Assembly (NCBI GenBank): GCA_030432295.1
Contig: JAUIHI010000001.1
Coordinates: forward strand, 372,001-436,000
Direction of reading: 5' to 3'
Source of the DNA: Anaerolineae bacterium
Lineage (GTDB): Bacteria > Chloroflexota > Anaerolineae > Caldilineales > Caldilineaceae
DNA length: 64,000 bases
How positions within the stretch are numbered: position 1 is the stretch's first letter; every line of letters begins with the position of its first letter. Positions 22,165-37,003 of this stretch are shown piece by piece. The notes under the pieces were generated by a model. The model was not told where the DNA came from and ran no database searches. It saw only the letters and a program-made list of their open reading frames with translations. Made by a program: the position numbers and the translations under genes.

Positions 22165-22277
22165 CCAATCACCTCGCATATCTATTGGTAGACGTGTAGG
22201 CTATTCTACAGCATCTGGGACCATCTACGCCTATTCTAGGCTGTGCAATGTCAACACCCATCCCAAAGGAATCTCCA

Positions 22278-22937
22278 ATGGCGCAACGTAAGAAAATGAG
22301 CCAAACCCAGCGTGCAGCCAGCCAACCCCAGGGGAAACGCAGCAGGCGTCTAGTCGGTGTTCTGGTGGGCGTGGCACTCTTCGCTGGCTTCGTCTTTCTC
22401 CTCTGGCAGCAGACAACCGGTGGCCCCACCCTCTCTGCCGAGGATGTGCCCGATCCCGCGTTAGGGCCAGCAAACGCGCCGATTGAGATTGTCGAATACA
22501 GTGATTTTGGTTGTCCAGCCTGCAAGGGCTGGCACAGCGCGGGGATTGCAGCCCAATTGCAGGAAACCTACGGGGACAAAATACGTTTCGTCTGGAAGGA
22601 TTTCCCTGTGGTCACCCCCTATTCGCCCAAAGCTGCCGAGGCGGGCCATTGCGCGGCACAGCAGGGCAAGTTCTGGGAGTATCACAACTATCTCTTCGAA
22701 TCCACCACAAACCTGCGCGACGACGGGCTGAAAGCCGCCGCGGCCAGCCTTGGATTGGACCAGTCTGCCTTCGACACCTGTCTGGATTCGGGCCAGATGG
22801 CCGGGAAGGTGCAGGCCAACGACAACGCGGCCCGGCGTTTAGGGATGCGGGGTACGCCGGGTTTCACCTTCAACGGCCAGGTGCTGCCCGCGCCGCCCTC
22901 CTTCGCCCAGTTGGCCCAGATGATTGACAGCCAGTAG
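22278..22937 (+). CDS. membrane-anchored DsbA-like thiol oxidoreductase
   Basis: 219 aa. A basic N-terminus (residues 1-33) is followed by one hydrophobic segment (VGVLVGVALFAGFVFLLW), so the protein is probably anchored with its domain outside. The thioredoxin-fold domain has the redox motif CPAC in EYSDFGCPACKGW, a helical insertion typical of DsbA/BdbD proteins, and the cis-Pro segment GMRGTPGFTFNGQ. Likely introduces disulfides into exported proteins. ATG 22278 has AAGGA 7 nt upstream, better than the ATG at 22248. It is divergently oriented from the exonuclease and ends before a strong terminator. Confidence 0.9.
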   Translation: MAQRKKMSQTQRAASQPQGKRSRRLVGVLVGVALFAGFVFLLWQQTTGGPTLSAEDVPDPALGPANAPIEIVEYSDFGCPACKGWHSAGIAAQLQETYGDKIRFVWKDFPVVTPYSPKAAEAGHCAAQQGKFWEYHNYLFESTTNLRDDGLKAAAASLGLDQSAFDTCLDSGQMAGKVQANDNAARRLGMRGTPGFTFNGQVLPAPPSFAQLAQMIDSQ

Positions 22938-23015: not shown

Positions 23016-24642
23016 ATTTTATCCGTTCCAATTATCACTGCCTACGCAATACGTGGCACTCAGCACACAGCGTTCACTACACTCTCCCCTACCGCCCCAC
23101 CATCGGCAGGAAGAGGTTTCGCTCCGGCAGACCCGCTGTCACCGAATCCACCTCCACCGGTCCATAGAGATTGAGATTGCCGTCGCTCTCGATCTCTTGC
23201 AGCCAGTACCAGTCACCCTTCTGGCCATCCGGGTCAAAGAAGCTGTACGATGCCCCGTTGCCATTGCGCCCCGCGGCGGGGATTACCCCCGGTGTCACCC
23301 GTACGCCGTCGCTCCAAAGATTGTTGGGTGTACGCCAGAGGTGGAAGCCCCAGGCGTTGACCTCCGCGCCTGTGAGCCACTGCAACTGCACCCCGGCTGG
23401 CTGGCTGCGGGCCGTGAAGCGCAGCAGCGTCACCGCGGTCGGGTCCAGGGGGTTGGCCGTCTGACTGGTGTTGGCATTGTCACCGGTCTGGTCGCTACGC
23501 ACAACACCGCGCAGGATAATCACCGGTACTTGCAGGTCCCCATTCACCACCACCCGCAACTGGCGGGTATCGACGCCGCCCCGGGGCAGTGTGCCCAACG
23601 CCCATTGAACCGGCGGTGTTTGGGCCTGGGGGCCGGGCAGTCGGGCCTGGGAGTTGTCCGGACAGCTCTCCACAACTGTGGTACCGTCCGATGGCTCCGC
23701 TGTTAAAGTCGTGCGGGTCAGGTCCATCCCGCCTGTGTTGGTCGTGATCAGATCGTAGACAATGCAGTCGCCTGGACGCACATTCGAGGAGGGCTGCGGG
23801 ACGCTTTCGATGGTCAAGTCCACCGCGGCTACCGCTATTTCCACCTGGGCCTGCCCAGTCACCAGCGCTGCTGGATCGCCGTTTTCGTCCAGTGCAAACA
23901 GGAGTTGCAGCGTATTCATCACCGGTGATTGAGCGGTTGTCACTGTAAAGCCGATTGTGTATTCCAGCGTATTGCCGGGCAACAGATCGCCCAGCGCATC
24001 CGTCACATCGGCCCATTCTGCGCGCCCGGGGCTGTTCTGGTCGGGCGTGATTTGGGCGTTGCGGAAAGCCAGTTCGTTGTCACTGTAGACATCTGCCGCT
24101 CGTATCAGGTCCAGCCGGGTGTCGCCTGTATTGGCGATGCGCAGGGTGAAGGTGATGGGCACATTCTGCACGGCAAAGGGGTTGCTGCCTGCCAGGGATT
24201 TGCTCACGGCCAGAGAAGGGGCGGTGATTCGCACAGCCGCGCTGGCCTGCGTTTCTTGGGCCGGATGACCGCCGCTGTCGGTGGCACCAGCCACCCGGGC
24301 ATTCTGGACAGTGGCCTTGTTCGCCAGCAGGTCAGTGCTCGCCAGTGCCCGGTAGCGGATCGACACTTGGAGAATCCCGCCCACAGCCAGCGGAGTGTCC
24401 TGGGCCAGATTCGTCCAGACAAGCTGACCGCCGTTGCTGCTGGTCGGCGCAGGCTGTGCATCCAGGAAGGTGAGATAGCCAGCGTCGAAGGTCTCAGTCA
24501 GGGGAAGGGTCGCCAGCACAGAATCACCTGTGTTGGTGATGCGAACTGTAAAAGTGACTTCCTGGCCGACAGTGACAATCCCGTCCTGGGCCATACTGTT
24601 CCGTACAAGTTCCAGCCCCAGGGCCAGCGCGGGGGAGGGACT

Positions 24643-25857
24643 TGTAGCTGTAGCAGTAGCAGTAGCTGTAGCAGTAGCAGTAGCAGTGGCAGTTGTGCTG
24701 CTGGTCGGCGTCGGGGTGTGGCTGGCGGTCGCTGTCGGCGTAGCTGTGCCGGTCGCTGTCGGCGTGGCTGTTCCGGTCGCTGTTGGTGTAGCTGTGCCGG
24801 TCGCTGTCGGCGTGGCTGTGCTGGTTGCTGTCGGTGTAGCTGTGCCGGTCGCCGTGGCAGTGGCTGTGCCCGTCGCTGTTGGCGTAGCAGTGCCCGTCGC
24901 CGTGGCGGTAGCAGTGCCGGTCGCTGTTGGCGTAGCAGTGCCGGTCGCTGTTGGCGTGGCTGTGCCCGTGGCCGTGGCGGTAGCTGTGCCCGTGGCTGTC
25001 GGCGTGGCAGTGCCGGTCGCTGTTGGCGTGGCAGTGCCGGTCGCTGTTGGCGTAGCAGTGCCGGTCGCTGTTGGCGTAGCAGTGCCGGTCGCTGTCGGCG
25101 TGGCTGTGCCCGTTGCCGTGGCGGTAGCAGTGCCGGTCGGCGTGGGAGTGGCTGTGCCCGTCGCTGTTGGCGTGGTTGTGCCGGTCGCTGTGGCGGTAGC
25201 AGTGCCGGTCGCTGTGGCGGTAGCTGTGCCGGTCGCTGTGGCGGTAGCTGTGCCGGTCGGCGTGGGAGTGGCTGTGCCCGTCGCTGTTGGCGTGGCTGTG
25301 CCCGTCGGCGTAGCTGTGCCGGTCGCTGTGGCGGTAGCTGTGCCGGTCGCTGTGGCGGTAGCTGTGGCGGTAGCTGTGCCGGTCGCTGTGGCGGTAGCTG
25401 TGCCGGTCGCTGTTGGTGTAGCTGTGCCCGTCGCTGTTGGTGTAGCTGTGCCGGTCGCTGTTGGTGTAGCTGTTCCAGTCGCTGTTGGTGTAGCTGTTCC
25501 AGTCGCTGTCGGCGTGGCTGTGCCGGTCGCTGTCGGCGTGGCTGTGCCGGTCGGCGTGGCTGTAGCAGTGCCCGTCGCTGTTGGTGTAGCTGTTCCAGTC
25601 GCTGTCGGCGTGGCTGTTCCGGTCGCTGTTGGCGTGGCTGTGCCGGTCGCCGTGGCAGTGGCTGTGCCCGTCGCTGTTGGTGTAGCTGTTCCAGTCGCTG
25701 TCGGCGTAGCTGTGCCGGTCGCTGTTGGCGTGGCTGTTCCAGTCGCTGTCGGCGTGGCTGTGCCGGTCGCTGTTGGCGTGGCTGTTCCAGTCGCTGTCGG
25801 CGTGGCTGTGCCGGTCGCCGTGGCGGTAGCTGTGCCGGTCGCTGTCGGCGTGGCGGT
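24643..25857 (-). repeat. 24-bp tandem repeat tract encoding (GTATPTAT)n
   Basis: About 1.2 kb of imperfect 24-bp units (plus strand GTCGCTGTCGGCGTGGCTGT and variants), roughly 45-50 copies, encoding a Thr/Pro/Ala linker. Similar Thr-Pro tracts in Chloroflexota surface proteins are taken to be extended, glycosylated wall-spanning stalks. The unit length is a multiple of three, so copy-number change keeps the frame, and other frames also remain open. Confidence 0.9.
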
Positions 25858-25890
25858 GGGGGCATTGACCAGAATCGTCGTTGTATAGTC

Positions 25891-26740
25891 GTTGAAGCCG
25901 CCGTCTTTGTCCGCAATGCGCGCCCCCACTGTGCGGCTGGTCACGCCGGTCAGATAGCTGGCGGGAACTGTGGCCGTGGCCGCGGTCGTACCCGTAATCT
26001 CGAAGGTTCCGTCCAAATCGAAGTCGTAGCTGTAGAGGAAGCCCGCGCTGGTATCGCTGGTGGACGGATCGCTCTGGCCGCTGAAGGAGACGACAGCTGT
26101 ACCGCCGTCGTTGGCCGGGCCGTCATTGCCCAGGCTGGCCGTTGGCGCCACATTGTTCACACCTACGCTGACGCTGCTGGAGACCAGACTGGTCTGGCTG
26201 CTGGTGACAGTGGCCGTGTTGACAACCGTCAACGGGCCGTCGTCCTGGAGCAGGCTATAGGTGTAGGTGACGCTCTCGCCTGCGCTCAGGGAGAAGCCGC
26301 TGCCCAGCGTGCCGGTGAGGCTGTCGGCAACCCTTACGTCACTAGCAAAGCCCGTGCCTGTGTTGCGCACCGTTACGGTGAAGACGACGGTCCCGCCTTC
26401 GTCCACGGCAGTGGCGCTGGCCGTCTTGCTGATGTTCAGAAGAGGCGCGTTGACGGCAATCACAGTTGTGTAGTCGTTGAAGCCGCCGTCTTTGTCCGCA
26501 ATGCGCGCCCCCACTGTGCGGCTGGTCACGCCAGTCAGATAGCTGGCGGGGACGGTGGCCGTGGCCGCGGTCGTACCCGTAATCTCGAAGGTTCCGTCCA
26601 AATCGAAGTCGTAGCTGTAGAGGAAGCCACCGATTGTATCGCTGGTGGACGGGTCGCTCTGGCCGCTGAAGGAGACGACAGCCGTACCGCCGTCGTTGGC
26701 CGGACCGTCGTTGCCCAGGCTGGCCGTGGGCGAGACATTC
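25891..26740 (-). repeat. near-identical tandem duplication of a PKD-like/DUF11 module
   Basis: The segment starting at 25891 is repeated from 26476, an offset of 585 bp (195 codons). About 250 bp are almost identical, both encoding the sequence beginning TASLGNDGPANDGGTAVVSF. Confidence 0.85.
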
Positions 26741-28518
26741 TGCCACTGGACAGTTGTGCTGTCAGAAACCGGGCTGGTCTGGCTGCTGGTGACGGTCGCT
26801 GTGTTGATGACCGTCCGCGGCCCGTCATCCTGGCTGATGGGATAGGTGAAGGTCATCGCTTGGCCCGCGGCCAGGGAGGAGGCCGACGCCAGCGCGCCCG
26901 CGATTGTGTCGTGCACATCTACACCCGTAGCCGTCGAGCCGCCGGTGTTAAAGACGACGACTGTATAGGTGATTGTGCCGCTTTCGTCCGGAGACGAATT
27001 GTCCACGCGCTTGTGGATGGCGAGCACTGGCGCGCCCACCACATCAAAAACTGCGTCCGCACTGTTGTTCGTTGTCGTGTATTCGTTGCTGGCGCTGATA
27101 TATGCCGTGTTGGTAATGGTCGTCCCAAACAGACTGTTGTCCGTGCCCAGGCTGGCCGTGACGGTAATTGTCCCGCCTGCGCCGGGGAGCAGGTCGGCTG
27201 TCTGCCAGGTATACGGAGCCGTGCTGGTCTGGGTGATGACGACGCCCCGGCTGATGACGCCGGTTGCGTTGACGCCGCTGGGCAGAGCATCGGTCAGGAA
27301 GACGCCTGTGGCAATGCCGCTACCGGTGTTGGTGAAGCGAAGGGTATAGGTCAGGGGACTGCCTAACTCCAGCATACCGGGCCAGACCGCTTTGCTGACT
27401 GTCACATCGGCCCAGTCGTCGTTGCGGATTGTGCCGATGCCCTGACCGTCTGTAAGAAAGACGTTCTCTCCGCTGGCAGAGATTCCAGTCAGGTTGAGAT
27501 AGAAAATTTCATCCGCCTCGACGAAGAGATCGCCGTTGACGGTGACTGTCACCGTCTGAGAACCGGCCACATTCGCTGGGAACTCCACGCCAGGACCGCT
27601 GAGGATTTCCACGTAGTCGTTGTCGCTGACTAGCGCTGTGCTATTTGCGGTTTCGTAGGGCACAAAGACTTCGCTGTCCACCGCGTTGGTCAGTGTTACA
27701 GTAAAGACAAAATCGGTCGCGCCGCTCTGCCCCTCGTAAGCGGTCGCATCGCTGATAGTGACGCCTACGCTGTCGTTGTCGGTGATGACACCCGTGGCGC
27801 TGGGGGGGCTGCCCACTGCGTAGCCGCTGCCCGCGGTAAGTGTCAGAATGACTGTCTCGTCCAGCTCCGCTAGATTGTCGGGAGTCGGCTCTACAGTCAC
27901 AGTGACGGTGGCCTGACCCGCCGGAATTGTCACGTCCCCGCCCAGCGCGCTGTAGTCGCTGCCGCTGGTGGCTGTGCCGCCCACATCGAAATTGACAATC
28001 AACGGGCTGGTTGTCGAATGGCTGCGGGTGAAGGTGTAGGTCAGGCCAATGCCTCCGTCTTCCACCACAGAGACAGGCGCGACGCCAATCGTCACGGATG
28101 GCGGATCGAGTACGCTGAAGTTGGCGCTGGCCGAGCCGTCCCCGCTGGTATGGCTGTAGAGCGCTGTATTGGTGATGCTTTCGCTGTGGTCGCCTGTGTG
28201 GGTGATGGCGAAGGTAAATGTGATGGCTGTGCTGGCGGTGAGGGTTGCCGTCCAGGCGATTTCGCTGTTGCTTTCCAGCGCGCCTGTGGGCGGGATATCC
28301 CAACCGGCGAAGGTGACGCTGACGGGCAGGGTGTCGGTCAGAACAACCCCATAGGCATTGGCCCCTGTATTCGAGAGTACCAGTGTATAGGTGACGACGC
28401 CGCCCTTGTCGATTGCTGCCGTCGGTGTCACCGTTTTGGTCAGCGTCAGGGCGGCGGCAAAGCTTGACTCATACGCGCCGCTGTCACAGACCACATTTTG
28501 CGGGCGGGCAAAGCCCCG

Positions 28519-28521
28519 CTA
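28519..28521 (-). other. in-frame amber stop splitting the giant gene
   Basis: The codon is TAG (followed by C) where the parallel domain earlier in the same protein has Gln in SEDQRGYARP; here the reading is LSDD-stop-RGFARP. A single C-to-T change of CAG explains it. Confidence 0.85.
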
Positions 28522-31500
28522 GTCGTCGCTGAGTGGCGTGCCCACCCCATCGACACAGCCCGCCGGGTTGCCCCCGTCGATGGCGGGCGAACCGGCCAGG
28601 AGTGCGTGGGTGTGGAGCTGATAGCCGACCAGCGCGTCGTTGTCGTCCAGAACGTCAAGCAGCAGGGAAACGTCCACCTGATCGCCGGTGGCCATGAAGC
28701 CGCTGCTGCCCGCGCTCTCTTCGAGCAGATTGTAGCCTGCGGATGTGAATGTGCCGAAGGCGTCCGGCCCACTGCCCCCCGCGCTGTTGTCGGCGCTCAG
28801 GCTGTTGCGTAGGGCAAAGGCGGTGCTGGCTCCGGCATAGAGACCGCCGCCGTCCCCCCCAGTGCTGTTGTCGGCCACTGTCACATTGAAGAGGGCGACT
28901 GATCCTCCGTCGTCAACACCGATGCCGCCGCCGTTGCCGGTGGTCGATTGGTTGCCGCTGATAGTAGTGTTGACCAGTGTAATGGGGGCTGTGGATGTGA
29001 CAAAGACGCCGCCACCGTGAAGACCAGTGCTATTGTCGGCAATCAGTGAATGGGTAATCGTCATCGGCGCTTCGGCGTGGATGCCGCCGCCGCTGTAACC
29101 GCTCCCGCTGCTGTTGCCCCACACCTGGCTGCGTTCAATCGTCAGGAAATCGTCCGCGTCGATACCGCCCCCATCTTCGCCCGCACGATTGTAGTTCAGT
29201 GTACTGCTGATTATTCGGGTGATGCTGCCGCTGTCGCTGTCCAACCCGCCGCCGTCACCGTCAGCCAGATTGTAGTCGATGGCGCTGTTGACAATTGTTA
29301 GCAGACCGTCGCTGGCTGTGAGACCGCCGCCGTCGTCGTGCGCGGTGTTGCTGATGATGCGTGTGGCTGTGATAGTGGTTGTGCCACCTGCCAGCGCAAG
29401 GCCGCCGCCGTCGTCGTTAGCCCCATTCCAATGGATTTCGGCGCTCTGGAGCACAAGCGTACCGTCGGAATGGTTGATGCCACCGCCATCTTCCTCCGCA
29501 GTGTTGCTGAATATCTGAGTCGCTGAAATCGTCACGTTGCCATCAGCGATGTCTATACCACCGCCGGTGTCGAGGGCTGTGTTGCTGATCACGCGGCTAC
29601 CCCAAATCGTTACTGTGCCTCCCGCCACAGCCATCCCACCGCCAAAGACGGCTTCATTGGTCAGAATCTGTGTATTGGTGATGGTGACTTGGAAGTCGGG
29701 TGCGATGAAAATACCACCGCCCACAAAGTCCGAGTAATTCAGTATCATCAAAGAATCTTCGATGGTGGCATCGCCAGCGTCCTGGTGGATACCACCGCCG
29801 CCCAGAGAAGATCCGCCGAGCGCATAGGCGCTGTTAGATTCGATGCGACTGATGCGAACAGTCAGCGGGCCGTCGGAGTCGATGCCCCCCCCGTCTTCGT
29901 CAGCCTCGTTGTAGCGGATTGTACTATCGAAGATCCGTATACTGTTGCCGTTGCTGTCGATACCGCCGCCGTCTTCTTCGCTGTAGTTGTATTCCAACAG
30001 AGAGTTTGTGATGGTCAGCCAACTTGTGCTGGCGATGCCGCCGCCGTCCCCTTCTGCGTAGTTGTCAGACACATCGCTGTCGATCACTTCCAGTGGGCCA
30101 TAGCTGCGGATACCACTGCCATTTCCCTCCGCATAATTGGAGTAGACGTGGGTGTTGCTGATGATCAGCGTGCCCTCGTTGCGAATGCCGGCGCCGCTGT
30201 CTGATGTTTCCCCGTCGGTGATGCGCAGATTCTCGATCAGCACATCTACGCCTAATGCGATGGATATCACCCGGCCCAGGGCCAGCGCGTCAATTGTTGT
30301 TGGATTGGCGTTGGCGTCCGGGCTGCCCGTCAGCCGATCTGTGACGGTATAACCGCCGCGCAGGGTCAGGCTTTTGTCGATGGCTGTGGACTGGACGCCG
30401 CCGCCGTAGCTCTCTACCCCAGCGCAGTAGCCGGCCACCCGCACCTCACCGCCACTGGAAGACGCGTTTACCGCCTGCTGCACAGCGTGCGCGTCCAGAC
30501 TGCTGTAGACCGTCGTTCCGCTGTCCGGTGTGGCAAAGCAGAGGCCGACCGAATGGCTGACCGACGCGGAATGGTTTGCGGTCGTACTCACCAGACTGCT
30601 GGTGGTGATGAGGGCTGTGTTGTCGATGGTTGTCCCCAGCAAATCAACGCTGTTGCTCAGCACGCCGGTAATCGTCAGATAGCCGCTGCTGTTGGCTGCC
30701 ATATCCGCTACCTGCCAGACGTAGGGTAAGGAGGAAGGGCTGGTCTGGGTGATAGGGATTCCGCTGCTGATTACTGATGATACACTGATGCTGATTGGTA
30801 TGGCGTCGGTGATGACGATCCCTTCGGCTGTGGTCGTGGGGCTGGTGTTGGAGAAGAGAAGGGTATACGTCACTGTGTCGCCCGGCGCGGCCACTGTCGG
30901 GGTCACGGCTTTGCTGATGGCGATCTGCGCAACCTGCACTTCAAACGCGCCGATGTCGCTGGCGTCGTTGATATTGGCGATACCCAGAAGGTCTACCGGG
31001 CGGGCATAGCCGCGCTGATCCTCGCTGGTGGTGGTGCCGCTGTCACCGCCATCTTTGCCGGTGTCGATGGCGGGTGAGCCAGGCAAAAGCCCGTGGGTTT
31101 GGGTAGAATCGCCGTTGTCCTGCAGGGGGCCGAGCAGGGGATCGATGGGTGAGACATTGCTACCCACCTGATTGCCGTCGTAGCCGTCGCTGAGGCCGGA
31201 ACCTCCAGTGGCGTCGCCAATCAGATTGTAGTTGCCGCTGCTGAAAGCTCCCGATATATCGGGATGCGTGGTGCTGCCAGGTCCAGAGGAACCATCCTGG
31301 TTCCCCGCCACCAGTGTATTGTAAAGGTTTGTACTGCCGCCGCTGCGGGCCAGACCGCCGCCGTCGCCGGTGTTGTTGGCGTCGGCGTCCGCAGTGTTGT
31401 CGGTGACGGTCACATTGTAGAGGTCAACCGTGCCCGATTCAGCATAGAGTCCGCCGCCGTCGCCATTGGTGCGATTGCCGCTAAAAGTTGTGTTGGTAAA

Positions 31501-34149
31501 GATGAGCGTCTGGGTTCCATCGCCGCTCAGACTGACCCCACCGCCCGCGACCCGGTTAAAGTTTTCCGCCACGAGAGAGCGATTCAGCGAGCCGTAAATC
31601 GTGCCAGAACCACTGGCGTGGCTGTTCATACCGCCGCCGGTATCGTCAGCCAGACTGGCATCCGTATTGCTGATGATTTGGGTATCTACGATAGCAAACG
31701 AGATGACCCCATCCGATCCGGCCACCAGTTGCATTCCGCCACCACCCCCATCAAAGCTGATATTGCGGCTGATTGCGGCGCTTTCGATAGTCATTGTGAT
31801 CTGGCTGCTGCTGCTTGCGTCGGCGAAAATGCCGCCACCGCCGAAATCATTGCCGCCCGCGCTATTGCTGATCACCTGGCTGTTTTGCAGCGTAAATAGG
31901 ATATTACCACCCTCTGCTGCTAAGTAAATACCTCCACCGCTATCATCGACGCTGTTGCTGATCACCTGGCTGTTTTGCAGGGTCAGGTTAATATTTTCGT
32001 CAAAGGCTGCCATAAAAATAGCGCCGCCGTTATAGTTGGCACTGTTGTTGTAGACCGAAGCATTGATAATTGTGAGATTCCCATAGCTATAAATGCCACC
32101 GCCATTGTTGCCACCGATTGAGGCAGCCACCCCATTGCTGACAGTGGCGTGGGTCAGGGTCAACGCCGCGCTGGGGGCCACAAAAAACATACGGAACTCC
32201 GTAGCCGTGTCGCGCTGGATCACCGCGTCGTTGCCGATAATTGTGATGGGTTTCAGGATAGCCAGGGCTGAATCCCCATCGTAGGGGAAGCCAATACTGG
32301 TCAGCGAGACTGTGCTGACCGTCGGGTCAATCGTAATCGTCCCGCCAGGGCAAATAAAGTCAATGGCTTCGCGTAAAGTATCAGGTCCGCTGCCTCCCCC
32401 ACTGTCTCCTCCGTCGGTGACGGTGATGGCGTCGCTGCAGGCCGTCAGCACTACATCGTTGAAATCGCTGCCGCCGAAATAGTCGATGTACGTTGTCCGC
32501 CCGCTGATTGTAAAGAGGCTGTTCTGGGGCAGGCCGTTGAACATGCCCGTGACTGCACTATCCGACGCCACTGCATCAATGATCACAAACTGATCGCCCA
32601 CACTGGGCGTGATGGTGGGTGCGAGCGAAAGCGTGGCTCCGCCCAGCGTAATCGTGCGTCCTGCCCCCGTCACCTGTAGCTGGTCGTAGCCGCTGCCCGC
32701 AGATGTGCCGTCGATCTCTACTTCAAAGGTATCTGCCGCCGTCAATGTGACATTGCCGTTGACCGTCACTATACCCGGCGACGCGCCCGGCACGAGCGTG
32801 CCGTCAATCGAGACATTGCCCGTAACATCCGGGTTGTTGGACTGGCTGTTCTTGACCGTCCCGGTTAGGCTGACGGAATTGCTGCCCGCGTCCAGGTGAC
32901 CGGCGATGTCAATTGTGCCGGTGGTGCTGAGGCTGACGGAACTGATGAGCGCAATGCCCCGCCGCGCAACGATCACCCCGTTGACCCGCAGTTCCAGCAG
33001 GTCTCCGTTGCGCGTCACTGTGATGTTCTCTCCGTTCATTTCTTCGTAGTTGAATGGCCCAGCCACTACCGATAGGGCGGCATTGCTGCTGTTGTTGGTG
33101 GCAGTGATGTCGTTGCTGGCGGTGATCGTGACCGTATTCTCTATCGTTGTGGCGGTGAGGAAGGTATCAGTCAGTATGCCGGTGAGGGTAATGTACCCCC
33201 CCGCGCCGACGGCTAGATCGCTCACATCCCAGGCGAAGTCGGGGGTTCCAGATGTTTGGGAAATGGATGCGCCGCCGATTGTGCTGTTGGTGACACCGCG
33301 AAAAGTGATGCTGACTGGTACGCTGTCACTGATGATGACGCCATGGGCTGAGTAGAGACCACCGTTTGTAAAGCTAAGCGTGTAGGTTACTGCGCTGCCG
33401 GGTATAGCCGTGGACGGAGAGACACTTTTTGCTATCTTCAGATCTGTGAAATTAACGAGCACGTCATCAATGCCAAACTCATCACGGGATCCGCTGCCGC
33501 CGACATCATTGCTCTGCCACTGTAAGTAAAGGTAATTACCATCCTGGATCGTCACGCCAGAAAGGATGACCTGTCGCTCTACCATCTGCCAGGCAGGGGA
33601 TACGGTAGCTGTCTGAGTGGTAGTAAAGTCCAGATTCACTACAGGCGTATAAGTGATATCGTCGCCAGAGTAAAAAAAGTTTAGAAAGCTGGACCGTCCC
33701 TGGTCGTTGTAAGACCATATCTTATAGGAAACTGTGGGATCGATGACCGGGGCGCCGGTGTTATTCTGCACTCGTAGGGTGATTGTGCCGGGCGTAAAGT
33801 CAGCACCACTCGGCTGAACCCCTAGAATTGTATTGTCACCCCCCGTATCAAACGCGTATATGCCTCCGTTTGTAGCACCACCGTAAGAGGTACCCCGTGT
33901 AAAATCATTGAGTGTATGGGTGCCGTTGAATCTGCCGTCCTCATCGCTCAAGCCCGTAACTCGCCATTCGTCGGAATCAAGCTGGCCTGATGCCGGATTG
34001 GGCGCGAAGCCAACTCCGGTGAAACCTGTAAAATCAAAAAATGTAGGCAAGGGAGCTTGGGCTTGCAGACGTTCAAAGGGGAAGAAGAGGCCAGCACAGA
34101 GGATCGAGACGAAGAGCAGGGGAAGGGCGATTATGTGGAGTCGTCTCAC
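28519..34149 (-). CDS. giant surface protein, N-terminal part (beta-helix/DUF11), 1876 aa before the TAG
   Basis: Secreted or surface-anchored protein. A GTG start (34147-34149) gives a signal peptide (MRRLHIIALPLLFVSILCAG, then LFFPFERLQAQA). An N-terminal all-beta domain (residues about 35-210) precedes DUF11 (about 215-345), a long linker, a first right-handed beta-helix with PMP-like GGGIY / NNSA turns (about 600-1010), a DUF11, and a second beta-helix (about 1150-1850) made of short units such as NTAEEDGGGI. Each beta-helix ends in SPAIDTG/SPAIDGG followed by the RGYARP-type motif. Such proteins are thought to mediate adhesion or cell-surface structure. No convincing ribosome-binding site is seen, and an IS200-type element lies only about 20-30 bp upstream, so native expression signals may have been displaced. 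Confidence 0.85.
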   Translation of the reverse strand: MRRLHIIALPLLFVSILCAGLFFPFERLQAQAPLPTFFDFTGFTGVGFAPNPASGQLDSDEWRVTGLSDEDGRFNGTHTLNDFTRGTSYGGATNGGIYAFDTGGDNTILGVQPSGADFTPGTITLRVQNNTGAPVIDPTVSYKIWSYNDQGRSSFLNFFYSGDDITYTPVVNLDFTTTQTATVSPAWQMVERQVILSGVTIQDGNYLYLQWQSNDVGGSGSRDEFGIDDVLVNFTDLKIAKSVSPSTAIPGSAVTYTLSFTNGGLYSAHGVIISDSVPVSITFRGVTNSTIGGASISQTSGTPDFAWDVSDLAVGAGGYITLTGILTDTFLTATTIENTVTITASNDITATNNSSNAALSVVAGPFNYEEMNGENITVTRNGDLLELRVNGVIVARRGIALISSVSLSTTGTIDIAGHLDAGSNSVSLTGTVKNSQSNNPDVTGNVSIDGTLVPGASPGIVTVNGNVTLTAADTFEVEIDGTSAGSGYDQLQVTGAGRTITLGGATLSLAPTITPSVGDQFVIIDAVASDSAVTGMFNGLPQNSLFTISGRTTYIDYFGGSDFNDVVLTACSDAITVTDGGDSGGGSGPDTLREAIDFICPGGTITIDPTVSTVSLTSIGFPYDGDSALAILKPITIIGNDAVIQRDTATEFRMFFVAPSAALTLTHATVSNGVAASIGGNNGGGIYSYGNLTIINASVYNNSANYNGGAIFMAAFDENINLTLQNSQVISNSVDDSGGGIYLAAEGGNILFTLQNSQVISNSAGGNDFGGGGIFADASSSSQITMTIESAAISRNISFDGGGGGMQLVAGSDGVISFAIVDTQIISNTDASLADDTGGGMNSHASGSGTIYGSLNRSLVAENFNRVAGGGVSLSGDGTQTLIFTNTTFSGNRTNGDGGGLYAESGTVDLYNVTVTDNTADADANNTGDGGGLARSGGSTNLYNTLVAGNQDGSSGPGSTTHPDISGAFSSGNYNLIGDATGGSGLSDGYDGNQVGSNVSPIDPLLGPLQDNGDSTQTHGLLPGSPAIDTGKDGGDSGTTTSEDQRGYARPVDLLGIANINDASDIGAFEVQVAQIAISKAVTPTVAAPGDTVTYTLLFSNTSPTTTAEGIVITDAIPISISVSSVISSGIPITQTSPSSLPYVWQVADMAANSSGYLTITGVLSNSVDLLGTTIDNTALITTSSLVSTTANHSASVSHSVGLCFATPDSGTTVYSSLDAHAVQQAVNASSSGGEVRVAGYCAGVESYGGGVQSTAIDKSLTLRGGYTVTDRLTGSPDANANPTTIDALALGRVISIALGVDVLIENLRITDGETSDSGAGIRNEGTLIISNTHVYSNYAEGNGSGIRSYGPLEVIDSDVSDNYAEGDGGGIASTSWLTITNSLLEYNYSEEDGGGIDSNGNSIRIFDSTIRYNEADEDGGGIDSDGPLTVRISRIESNSAYALGGSSLGGGGIHQDAGDATIEDSLMILNYSDFVGGGIFIAPDFQVTITNTQILTNEAVFGGGMAVAGGTVTIWGSRVISNTALDTGGGIDIADGNVTISATQIFSNTAEEDGGGINHSDGTLVLQSAEIHWNGANDDGGGLALAGGTTTITATRIISNTAHDDGGGLTASDGLLTIVNSAIDYNLADGDGGGLDSDSGSITRIISSTLNYNRAGEDGGGIDADDFLTIERSQVWGNSSGSGYSGGGIHAEAPMTITHSLIADNSTGLHGGGVFVTSTAPITLVNTTISGNQSTTGNGGGIGVDDGGSVALFNVTVADNSTGGDGGGLYAGASTAFALRNSLSADNSAGGSGPDAFGTFTSAGYNLLEESAGSSGFMATGDQVDVSLLLDVLDDNDALVGYQLHTHALLAGSPAIDGGNPAGCVDGVGTPLSDD

Positions 34150-34373
34150 AGGAAATTTCTTTCATTCACCTCGAAACCACTACCTCTGGTAGTGGTGCAG
34201 GAAGCCGGTTCTACCGGTTGAGTGGGTTATGATGTATCTCCCTAGAAGGTGCCCACCAGCTAAGGAGATACATCATGAGCGAGAGATTTAGGAAACTCTC
34301 CCACTCAATCTATGAGTGTAAGTACCACATCGTGTTTTGTCCAAAATACCGCTACCGGATATTCACGGATGAG

Positions 34374-35286
34374 AGCGTGTTTAGAAATTAAGTAGTAGGT
34401 TTGATGCGTTTGAGCATAGTGGCGATGGAAGCGACATAAATGACACCTTCGCTACTTCTGGTGCAGCGCTCAAAGTCTTTACTGAGACGGCGAAAGCGAC
34501 CAAGCCAAGCCAAGGTACGTTCGACGATCCAGCGGACAGGAACGACGACGAAGCCTTTGGCATTGGGTGGACGATTGGTGATTTCAAGGGAAGCTCCCAC
34601 AGTTTTCTCTAACCATTCCTGGAAATCAGGACCGCGGTAACTACCATCAGCCCAGATTTTTTTGAGCGAAGCCCGAGTTTCTGATGGAAGTTTAGCGAAA
34701 ACCAGTTTAGCACCATCGCGATCTTGACCATTGGCAGCGTTGACGACCACATCGAGTAGGTTACCACACGTGTCAACCAAGTCATGACGTTTGCGTCCTT
34801 TGATGTTCTTGCCGCCGTCATAGCCAGATTCGCCGCCCGCTTCAGTGGTTTTGACAGTCTGGCTATCGATGATCCCACCGCTCGGTTCAGGTGTGCGGCC
34901 CTGTTCGATTCGTTCCCGTTGCCTCACGGCAGTGTTGAGCTTTTACCAAGTCCCGTCCGGACACCACTTACGGAAGTGATAATAAATTGTGCTCCACTTC
35001 GGAAAGTCGTGTGGTAAAGCACGCCATTGACAACCTGTGCGTACCATATACATGATCGCATTCACGATCTGGCGTAAATCGTACTTGAGTGGCCGCCCTG
35101 CTCCTGTCTTCTCACCGAGAAGCGATTCTAAGACCTTCCATCGCTCGTCGGTCAAATCGCTCGGATAGCCCTTTGTTTGCTCTTCCATTCTCTTCTCCTT
35201 GGATTGTTATGGCTTTCATACCATTTTATTCCATGAAGGAGTTTTCGTATAGCAAGAGAAGAGCCTGTTTAAATATTACTGGCTCT
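34374..35286 (-). mobile_element. IS5-family insertion sequence nested in the IS200-type tnpA
   Basis: About 913 bp, flanked by GAG on both sides (34371-34373 and 35287-35289). Removing the element and one GAG restores the tnpA frame exactly, which fixes the boundaries. The left end begins AGCGTGTTTAGAAATT, a sequence common at IS5-group ends; the right end matches it poorly as an inverted repeat. Confidence 0.85.
34388..35188 (-). pseudogene. IS5-family DDE transposase with one in-frame TAA
   Basis: The frame runs from ATG 35188 (MEEQTKGYPSDLTDERWKVL) through the family segment CQWRALPHDFPKW, hits TAA at 34943-34945 after KWCPDGTW, and continues in the same frame as KLNTAVRQRERIEQGRT. The remainder carries the DDE-region motifs IIDSQTVKTTEAGG, DGGKNIKGRKRH and RWIVERTLAWLGRFR. 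In relatives Glu follows GTW, so one GAA-to-TAA change explains the stop. About 265 codons in total, normal for the family. Without suppression this transposase is dead. Confidence 0.85.
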
Positions 35287-35705
35287 GAGATAGGAACATA
35301 CACGAGCCAGCAAATCTACCAGTTACTTCATCAGAAGGAAGATGTAGAAGTGCTGGAGTTGAAGGTGCGGCCAGACCATATCCATTTAGTGGTGTCGATA
35401 GCGCCGAAGTATGCCATCTCATCGATCATGGGATATTTGAAAGGCAAGCTGGCAATCCGACTGTTCGAGCGGTACGAACGGTTGGGACGGAAATACTGGG
35501 GCCGGCATCTGTGGTCTCGCGGCTACTGTGTAAGTACAGTCGGAATCGATGAAGAGAAGATTCGTAAGTACGTGCAGTGGCAGGAGAAGAAGGAACGCGA
35601 AATAGAGCAGCAACAGGGCAAGCTCCTCGGCTAACACCGAACGTAACGGGCACCTTTTAGGGCCGCCGCTTATTCAAGCCACCACCTTTGGTGGTGGTAG
35701 TTGAC

Positions 35706-35930: not shown

Positions 35931-35971
35931 CTTTGCCAGCGGCTACACCTAATCCCCACACGGACAGAACG

Positions 35972-37003
35972 ATGAGCGAAACATCCATCAATTTTGGCTT
36001 CAACGAAGCAGACCGCACCGACAATTATTCCGAAATGACATACATAGCGGCCATCAGCGACGCCCTGCAAGTGGAGATGCGCCGGGACCCCAACGTCCTG
36101 ATTATGGGCGAGGATGTGGGTGGAAGCTTTGGCGGCGCCTTCAAAGTGACCAAAGGCTTCGAGGAGGAGTTCGGTCGTCTGCGGGTGATGAACACCCCAA
36201 TGGCCGAGAACGGCTTTGTGGGCATGGCCACCGGCATGGCCCTGATGGGTCTGCGCCCGGTCATCGAAGTCCAGTTCGCCGATTTTATCACTTCGGCCTT
36301 CGACAGTATTGTCCAGTATGCGGCCACCAACCACTACCGCTGGAACGCGGCCGTACACTGGGTCATCCGTGCGCCCAGCGATGGCGGCATCCGCTCCGGT
36401 CCCTTCCACAGCCAGAACCCGGAGGCCTGGTTCACCCACACCCCCGGTCTGAAAGTCGTGGCCCCGGCCACCCCTGCCGACGCCAAAGGGCTGCTCATCG
36501 CCGCCATCCGGGACAACAATCCGGTCATCTTTTTCGAGAGCAAACCCCTCTACCGTTCGCTCAAAGGGCCTGTGCCCCCCGGCGAATATGTGGTGCCCAT
36601 CGGCAAAGCCAACCTGGCCCGCACGGGCAAGGATTTGTCGATCATCACCTACGGCGCACAGGTGCAGGAAGCACTGCAAGCCGCCGAAATCCTGGCCGCC
36701 GAAGGCATCGACGCCGAAGTCCTCGACCTGCGCACCCTCAAACCCCTGGACACGGACGCCATTCTGGAAACGGCTCGTAAGACCGGCAAAGTGCTGATCG
36801 TCCACTCGGCCACCGGCAACACCGGCCTGGGCGGAGAGATCGCTGCGCAGATCAGCCAGGAAGCCTTCGAGTGGCTGGACGCGCCCATCCAGCGCCTGAC
36901 CGGGCTGGACATTCCTGTGCCCTTCAGCCCACTTCTGGAAGACGCCTACCGGCCCAGCGCAGCGAAGATTGTAGAGCGTGCGCGTGCGCTGGCCGCGTTT
37001 TAA
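35972..37003 (+). CDS. pdhB: 2-oxoacid (pyruvate) dehydrogenase E1 component, beta subunit
   Basis: 343 aa. Beta subunit of the ThDP-dependent E1 heterotetramer; partner of the alpha subunit at 14865-15836. Family motifs: LIMGEDVGGSFGGAFKVTKG, NTPMAENGFVGMATGMAL, VEVQFADF-like EVQFADFITSAFD, the transketolase central segment RAPSDGGIRSGPFHSQ, and the C-terminal domain with SIITYGAQVQEAL and EVLDLRTLKPLD. No E2, E3 or alpha gene flanks it. Just upstream is the IS200-type element, so a rearrangement could have separated the subunits. The next gene (NUDIX) follows after a repeat-filled 82-bp gap. Confidence 0.92.
   Translation: MSETSINFGFNEADRTDNYSEMTYIAAISDALQVEMRRDPNVLIMGEDVGGSFGGAFKVTKGFEEEFGRLRVMNTPMAENGFVGMATGMALMGLRPVIEVQFADFITSAFDSIVQYAATNHYRWNAAVHWVIRAPSDGGIRSGPFHSQNPEAWFTHTPGLKVVAPATPADAKGLLIAAIRDNNPVIFFESKPLYRSLKGPVPPGEYVVPIGKANLARTGKDLSIITYGAQVQEALQAAEILAAEGIDAEVLDLRTLKPLDTDAILETARKTGKVLIVHSATGNTGLGGEIAAQISQEAFEWLDAPIQRLTGLDIPVPFSPLLEDAYRPSAAKIVERARALAAF

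Follow-up and report, generated by a model that had tools for sequence, protein, structure and literature searches.

Within the 64,000-nucleotide window of the Anaerolineae genome analysed here (the source genome), a reading frame of 11,061 bases and 3,686 codons is broken once, by a TAG at minus-strand 28521–28519 (AGC GAC GAC TAG CGG GGC TTT GCC CGC CCG). The question raised by this locus is whether the amber codon is a nonsense mutation in a giant secreted or surface protein gene, an error of the consensus or a minor strain variant, a stop that is read through, or the boundary between two genes. A recent nonsense mutation, private to this genome and falling within one ancestral gene, is the probable answer.

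The interrupted frame

The frames on either side of the TAG are in register and are separated by that codon only, as the preliminary description had it (Table 1). In-register pairs are common per se, with 255 in which each frame spans at least 150 codons in the 0.83 Mb (contigs C16 and C24) used for ORF statistics, but homology across the TAG and an absent start site set the pair at 28519 apart from these commonplace cases. A same-frame scan for interrupted genes placed it fifth of 667, the four pairs ranked above it having a start codon 1–4 codons past the stop; four further candidates viewed resembled adjacent genes or antisense shadow frames, and no second clear interrupted gene emerged among the pairs inspected.

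Table 1. Positions of the interrupted gene, its parts and its neighbours in the window
Feature	Position	Strand	Remarks
In-frame amber codon TAG	28519..28521	-	C16:400519-400521; inside second choice-of-anchor-Q domain; Gln (CAA) in G020 homologue
Upstream half, 1,876 codons from GTG, stop-free	28522..34149	-	In register with downstream half
Downstream half, 1,809 codons and own stop	23089..28518	-	In register with upstream half
First choice-of-anchor-Q domain, SEDQRGYARP, intact	30934..31143	-	C16:402934-403143
Second choice-of-anchor-Q domain, TAG-interrupted	28465..28620	-	C16:400465-400620; 1 TAG
First possible restart codon GTG	28492..28494	-	8 codons past stop; no Shine-Dalgarno-like sequence ahead
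Stalk of 24/48-bp tandem repeats	24718..25858	-	Tandem repeats
Inverted repeat, 23-nt arms	34229..34276	.	80 bp upstream of GTG start
DDE_Tnp_1 transposase ORF, 179 aa	34388..34927	-	Directly upstream; parts repeated elsewhere in genome
IS200-like Y1 transposase ORF	35089..35634	+	Between surface gene and E1-beta-like gene
Transketolase-type, E1-beta-like flanking gene	35933..37003	+	90% identical in G005; synteny anchor
DsbA/thioredoxin-like flanking gene	22248..22937	+	79% identical in G005; synteny anchor

Domain architecture

The upstream half comprises an apparent signal peptide (recognised by eye), an N-terminal module, DUF11 and two beta-helix modules, the second of which is cut within its final domain; the downstream half comprises DUF11/DUF7507, two Calx-beta domains, a Thr/Pro/Ala/Gly stalk and a C-terminal region ending LFLPMVGR. 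Of the modules originally listed for this protein, Pfam recovers DUF11 and Calx-beta, and also finds DUF7507; the PKD-like modules named alongside them have no match at E 0.01; the two beta-helices are assigned from choice_anch_Q together with a sub-threshold Beta_helix match. A single-sequence AlphaFold prediction of the part flanking the stop gave no usable model (pLDDT 39), and no match to a solved structure was found.

Against the choice_anch_Q profile (NF041518), the upstream half scores 91 bits, over the cut-off. The interrupted domain reaches 58.2 bits across profile positions 13–57 when the TAG is read as a residue (55.3 bits in the search of 41 genomes), and its upstream fragment 28.6 bits across positions 13–38; the stop thus lies mid-domain. 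The site is the near-invariant Gln position of the choice-of-anchor-Q domain, and the first helix module of the same protein, ending SEDQRGYARP, provides an intact internal parallel, which bears out the earlier comparison of Gln at one domain end with a stop at the other.

Homologues and the distribution of the stop

The best homologue, on G020:C107 from another genus of the same family, is 63% identical across the site (302 columns) and reads LSDDQRGFTRP there, with the Gln codon CAA opposite the stop; it is a single uninterrupted frame of 5,882 codons with a similar C-terminal ending. Within the same genus, the positional homologue on G005:C30 is one frame of 3,090 codons; both genomes share the neighbouring transketolase-type and Nudix genes to one side of it and the DsbA-like gene to the other. 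A third related frame, on G001:C376, contains no stop. Relatives in which the halves form separate genes, the case named at the outset as one that would speak against a split gene, were looked for and not found, the homologues being one frame. With continuous homologues and Gln at the site in G020, the two halves are, as judged by sequence comparison, one ancestral gene.

The second beta-helix module (28522–30579) is present here and in G020 and absent from G005:C30 (locus L030), so that the G005 homologue has no codon equivalent to the stop; whole modules are gained and lost in this surface-protein family. Searched against the genome collection, the downstream half yields distant matches only. 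Fourfold-degenerate sites in the downstream parts differ from the closest homologue at 43–61%, a distance too great for a codon-position comparison to have power on relaxed selection past the stop, and reveal no difference attributable to it.

Choice-of-anchor-Q members were found in 35 of the 41 related genomes searched, with 230 matches in total, and among the best ~150 of these 230 exactly one copy bears a stop, that at 28519. Parallel motifs in the fetched sequence comprise 17 with Gln (15 CAG, 2 CAA) and one with TAG. The base change is therefore, on this evidence, private to the source genome among the matches listed. Internal stops occur elsewhere in family members on G003:C102 and G016:C406. 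Since CAG is mainly used for Gln in the source genome (8,172 CAG versus 2,841 CAA codons in its long ORFs), a single transition from this presumed ancestral codon is enough to give TAG.

Age, setting and predicted consequence

A recent nonsense change, one of the origins proposed in the preliminary description, is well supported by the continuous homologues and by Gln at the site. A Gln codon would have become TAG, in one transition if the ancestor was CAG, and translation would most likely stop at residue 1,876. The protein predicted on this basis is the N-terminal half, exported, with a final domain missing the conserved C-terminal portion (RGxxRP...CDxGAYE). Calx-beta modules, stalk and C-terminal region would all be lost with the downstream half, which probably yields no stable protein. 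The single frame, its lone stop and Gln in relatives are observed; that the mutation is recent, that function is lost and what becomes of the shortened protein are inferred.

The downstream frame offers 246 single-base routes to a stop, none of them taken, and the neutral bound on divergence since the stop arose is ~3.7% counting nonsense changes only, or ~0.8% if indels are assumed to amount to 5% of substitutions. An otherwise perfect frame of this length suggests either that the stop is young or that the frame is still in use; in the latter case the intact downstream frame would be a point against a plain nonsense allele, as something may preserve it.

At the place of the upstream inverted repeat and transposase genes (Table 1), G005 has a different, surface-protein-like ORF, and this departure from the relative fits a decaying locus. 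Insertion of an element so close to the start codon may have changed how the gene is expressed and rendered it dispensable.

Assembly error or strain variant

The foremost rival, although an unlikely one, is that the assembled TAG reflects a mistake in the consensus or a strain in the minority, the gene being uninterrupted in the population. The difference is a single base, and the source genome, in 61 contigs, was most likely assembled from a metagenome; however, none of its 124 ABC_tran domains contains a stop, and its other listed choice_anch_Q copies are clean. Copies of the neighbouring transposon at contig ends overlap by ~127 nt, suggesting a short-read k=127 graph assembly, in which substitution errors are rare in unique sequence. 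A general assembly-error problem is unlikely; a local error, such as the sequencing error initially entertained, or a strain mixture is retained as a rival, less likely than a nonsense change.

Readthrough of the amber codon

Less likely again, and improbable in our estimation, is translation through the TAG at a useful rate, for example by near-cognate Gln decoding, which would give mainly the half-length protein and a smaller amount of the full-length one. The perfectly preserved downstream frame is consistent with it, as are E. coli observations in the passages of PMC11126739 drawn on here, where Tyr, Gln or Lys can be inserted at TAG, and leakage is favoured when the sequence after the stop is rich in G. 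In reporter data from the same passages, T after the stop aids termination, G weakens it, and TGA is leakier than TAG; basal leakage would be expected on these data, and programmed readthrough is not indicated. The earlier suggestion that TAG followed by C is a leaky context is not strong, as the passages drawn on do not single out C for bacteria.

Against readthrough, RF1 is present and complete in the genome, PylS has no match there, and TAG is an ordinary terminator, closing 174 of the 486 long ORFs in the 0.83 Mb used for ORF statistics. The glutamine suppressor tRNA with a CTA anticodon that had been envisaged was searched for among 45 tRNA matches (ARAGORN on the loci), which include no such anticodon; the Gln tRNAs identified are Gln(CTG) and Gln(TTG). 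The stop is not conserved among homologues, no other listed domain copy having one and G020 reading CAA, and the predicted RNA fold from the stop onward is slightly better than shuffles (z -1.5) but not exceptional. Programmed readthrough, also proposed initially, is accordingly unsupported.

A narrower form of this rival concerns tRNA-Gln(TTG), at C55:44130-44200 of the source genome, whose anticodon stem is topped by a C-U mismatch (27:43). With this pair unpinned, tRNA-Trp is reported to decode UGA more readily (PMC13092985), and the unpinned tRNA-Gln(UUG) of the genus could insert Gln at UAG at a low though useful rate, leaving a partly functional allele with short and long forms; this we regard as very improbable. 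The cited effect is on UGA, not UAG, and the tRNA has the same sequence in six of the seven genus genomes searched (the seventh, G004, would form G-U), whereas the stop is private among the matches listed, so the mismatch singles out neither the interrupted gene nor the source genome.

Several tandem tRNA-like units were observed on the minus strand of the source genome at G000:C52:145700-146500 (loci L074 and L154). One of them, 124 nt long, matches the tRNA family at 46 bits; its D-arm is separated from an anticodon-like arm by ~50 extra nt, and G006:C56 has a full-length copy with 90% identity. As a candidate suppressor this unit was rejected, its putative anticodon loop CUAUAAA giving AUA, not CUA. 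Among the tRNAs found in the source assembly there is no tRNA-Ile(GAT), whose gene may sit in an rRNA operon missing from the assembly.

Restart of the downstream half

Separate translation of the downstream half as a second gene, by restart or coupling, has a negligible likelihood: a GTG does lie 8 codons past the stop, but it is preceded by no Shine-Dalgarno sequence, would start translation inside a conserved domain and is followed by no signal peptide at the start of the half, and both parts are one frame in homologues. The sole promoter-like match, a weak one at 28757–28729, 200 bp upstream, was set aside as no more than a match to the consensus.

Relation to known systems and implications

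Programmed readthrough and pyrrolysine or suppressor-tRNA decoding likewise involve a UAG in frame with a long coding stretch after it; in the present case, by contrast, the stop is not conserved and no decoding apparatus was found, and the locus would bear on stop-codon decoding only if readthrough were shown. With bacterial pseudogenes and truncated alleles of large surface proteins this gene shares a single stop that relatives lack in an otherwise intact frame, and a modular, exported, fast-evolving product encoded beside transposase genes; it differs from them in the unusual length of both halves and in a downstream frame without further lesion. Its domain content is that of choice-of-anchor-Q/DUF11/Calx-beta modular surface proteins, here with the stop in the second choice-of-anchor-Q domain.

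The interrupted gene thus looks like an ordinary nonsense allele, with no sign of a new reading of the genetic code. For annotation, the two predicted genes belong on record as one disrupted gene, and the case illustrates how giant modular surface proteins turn over within this lineage.
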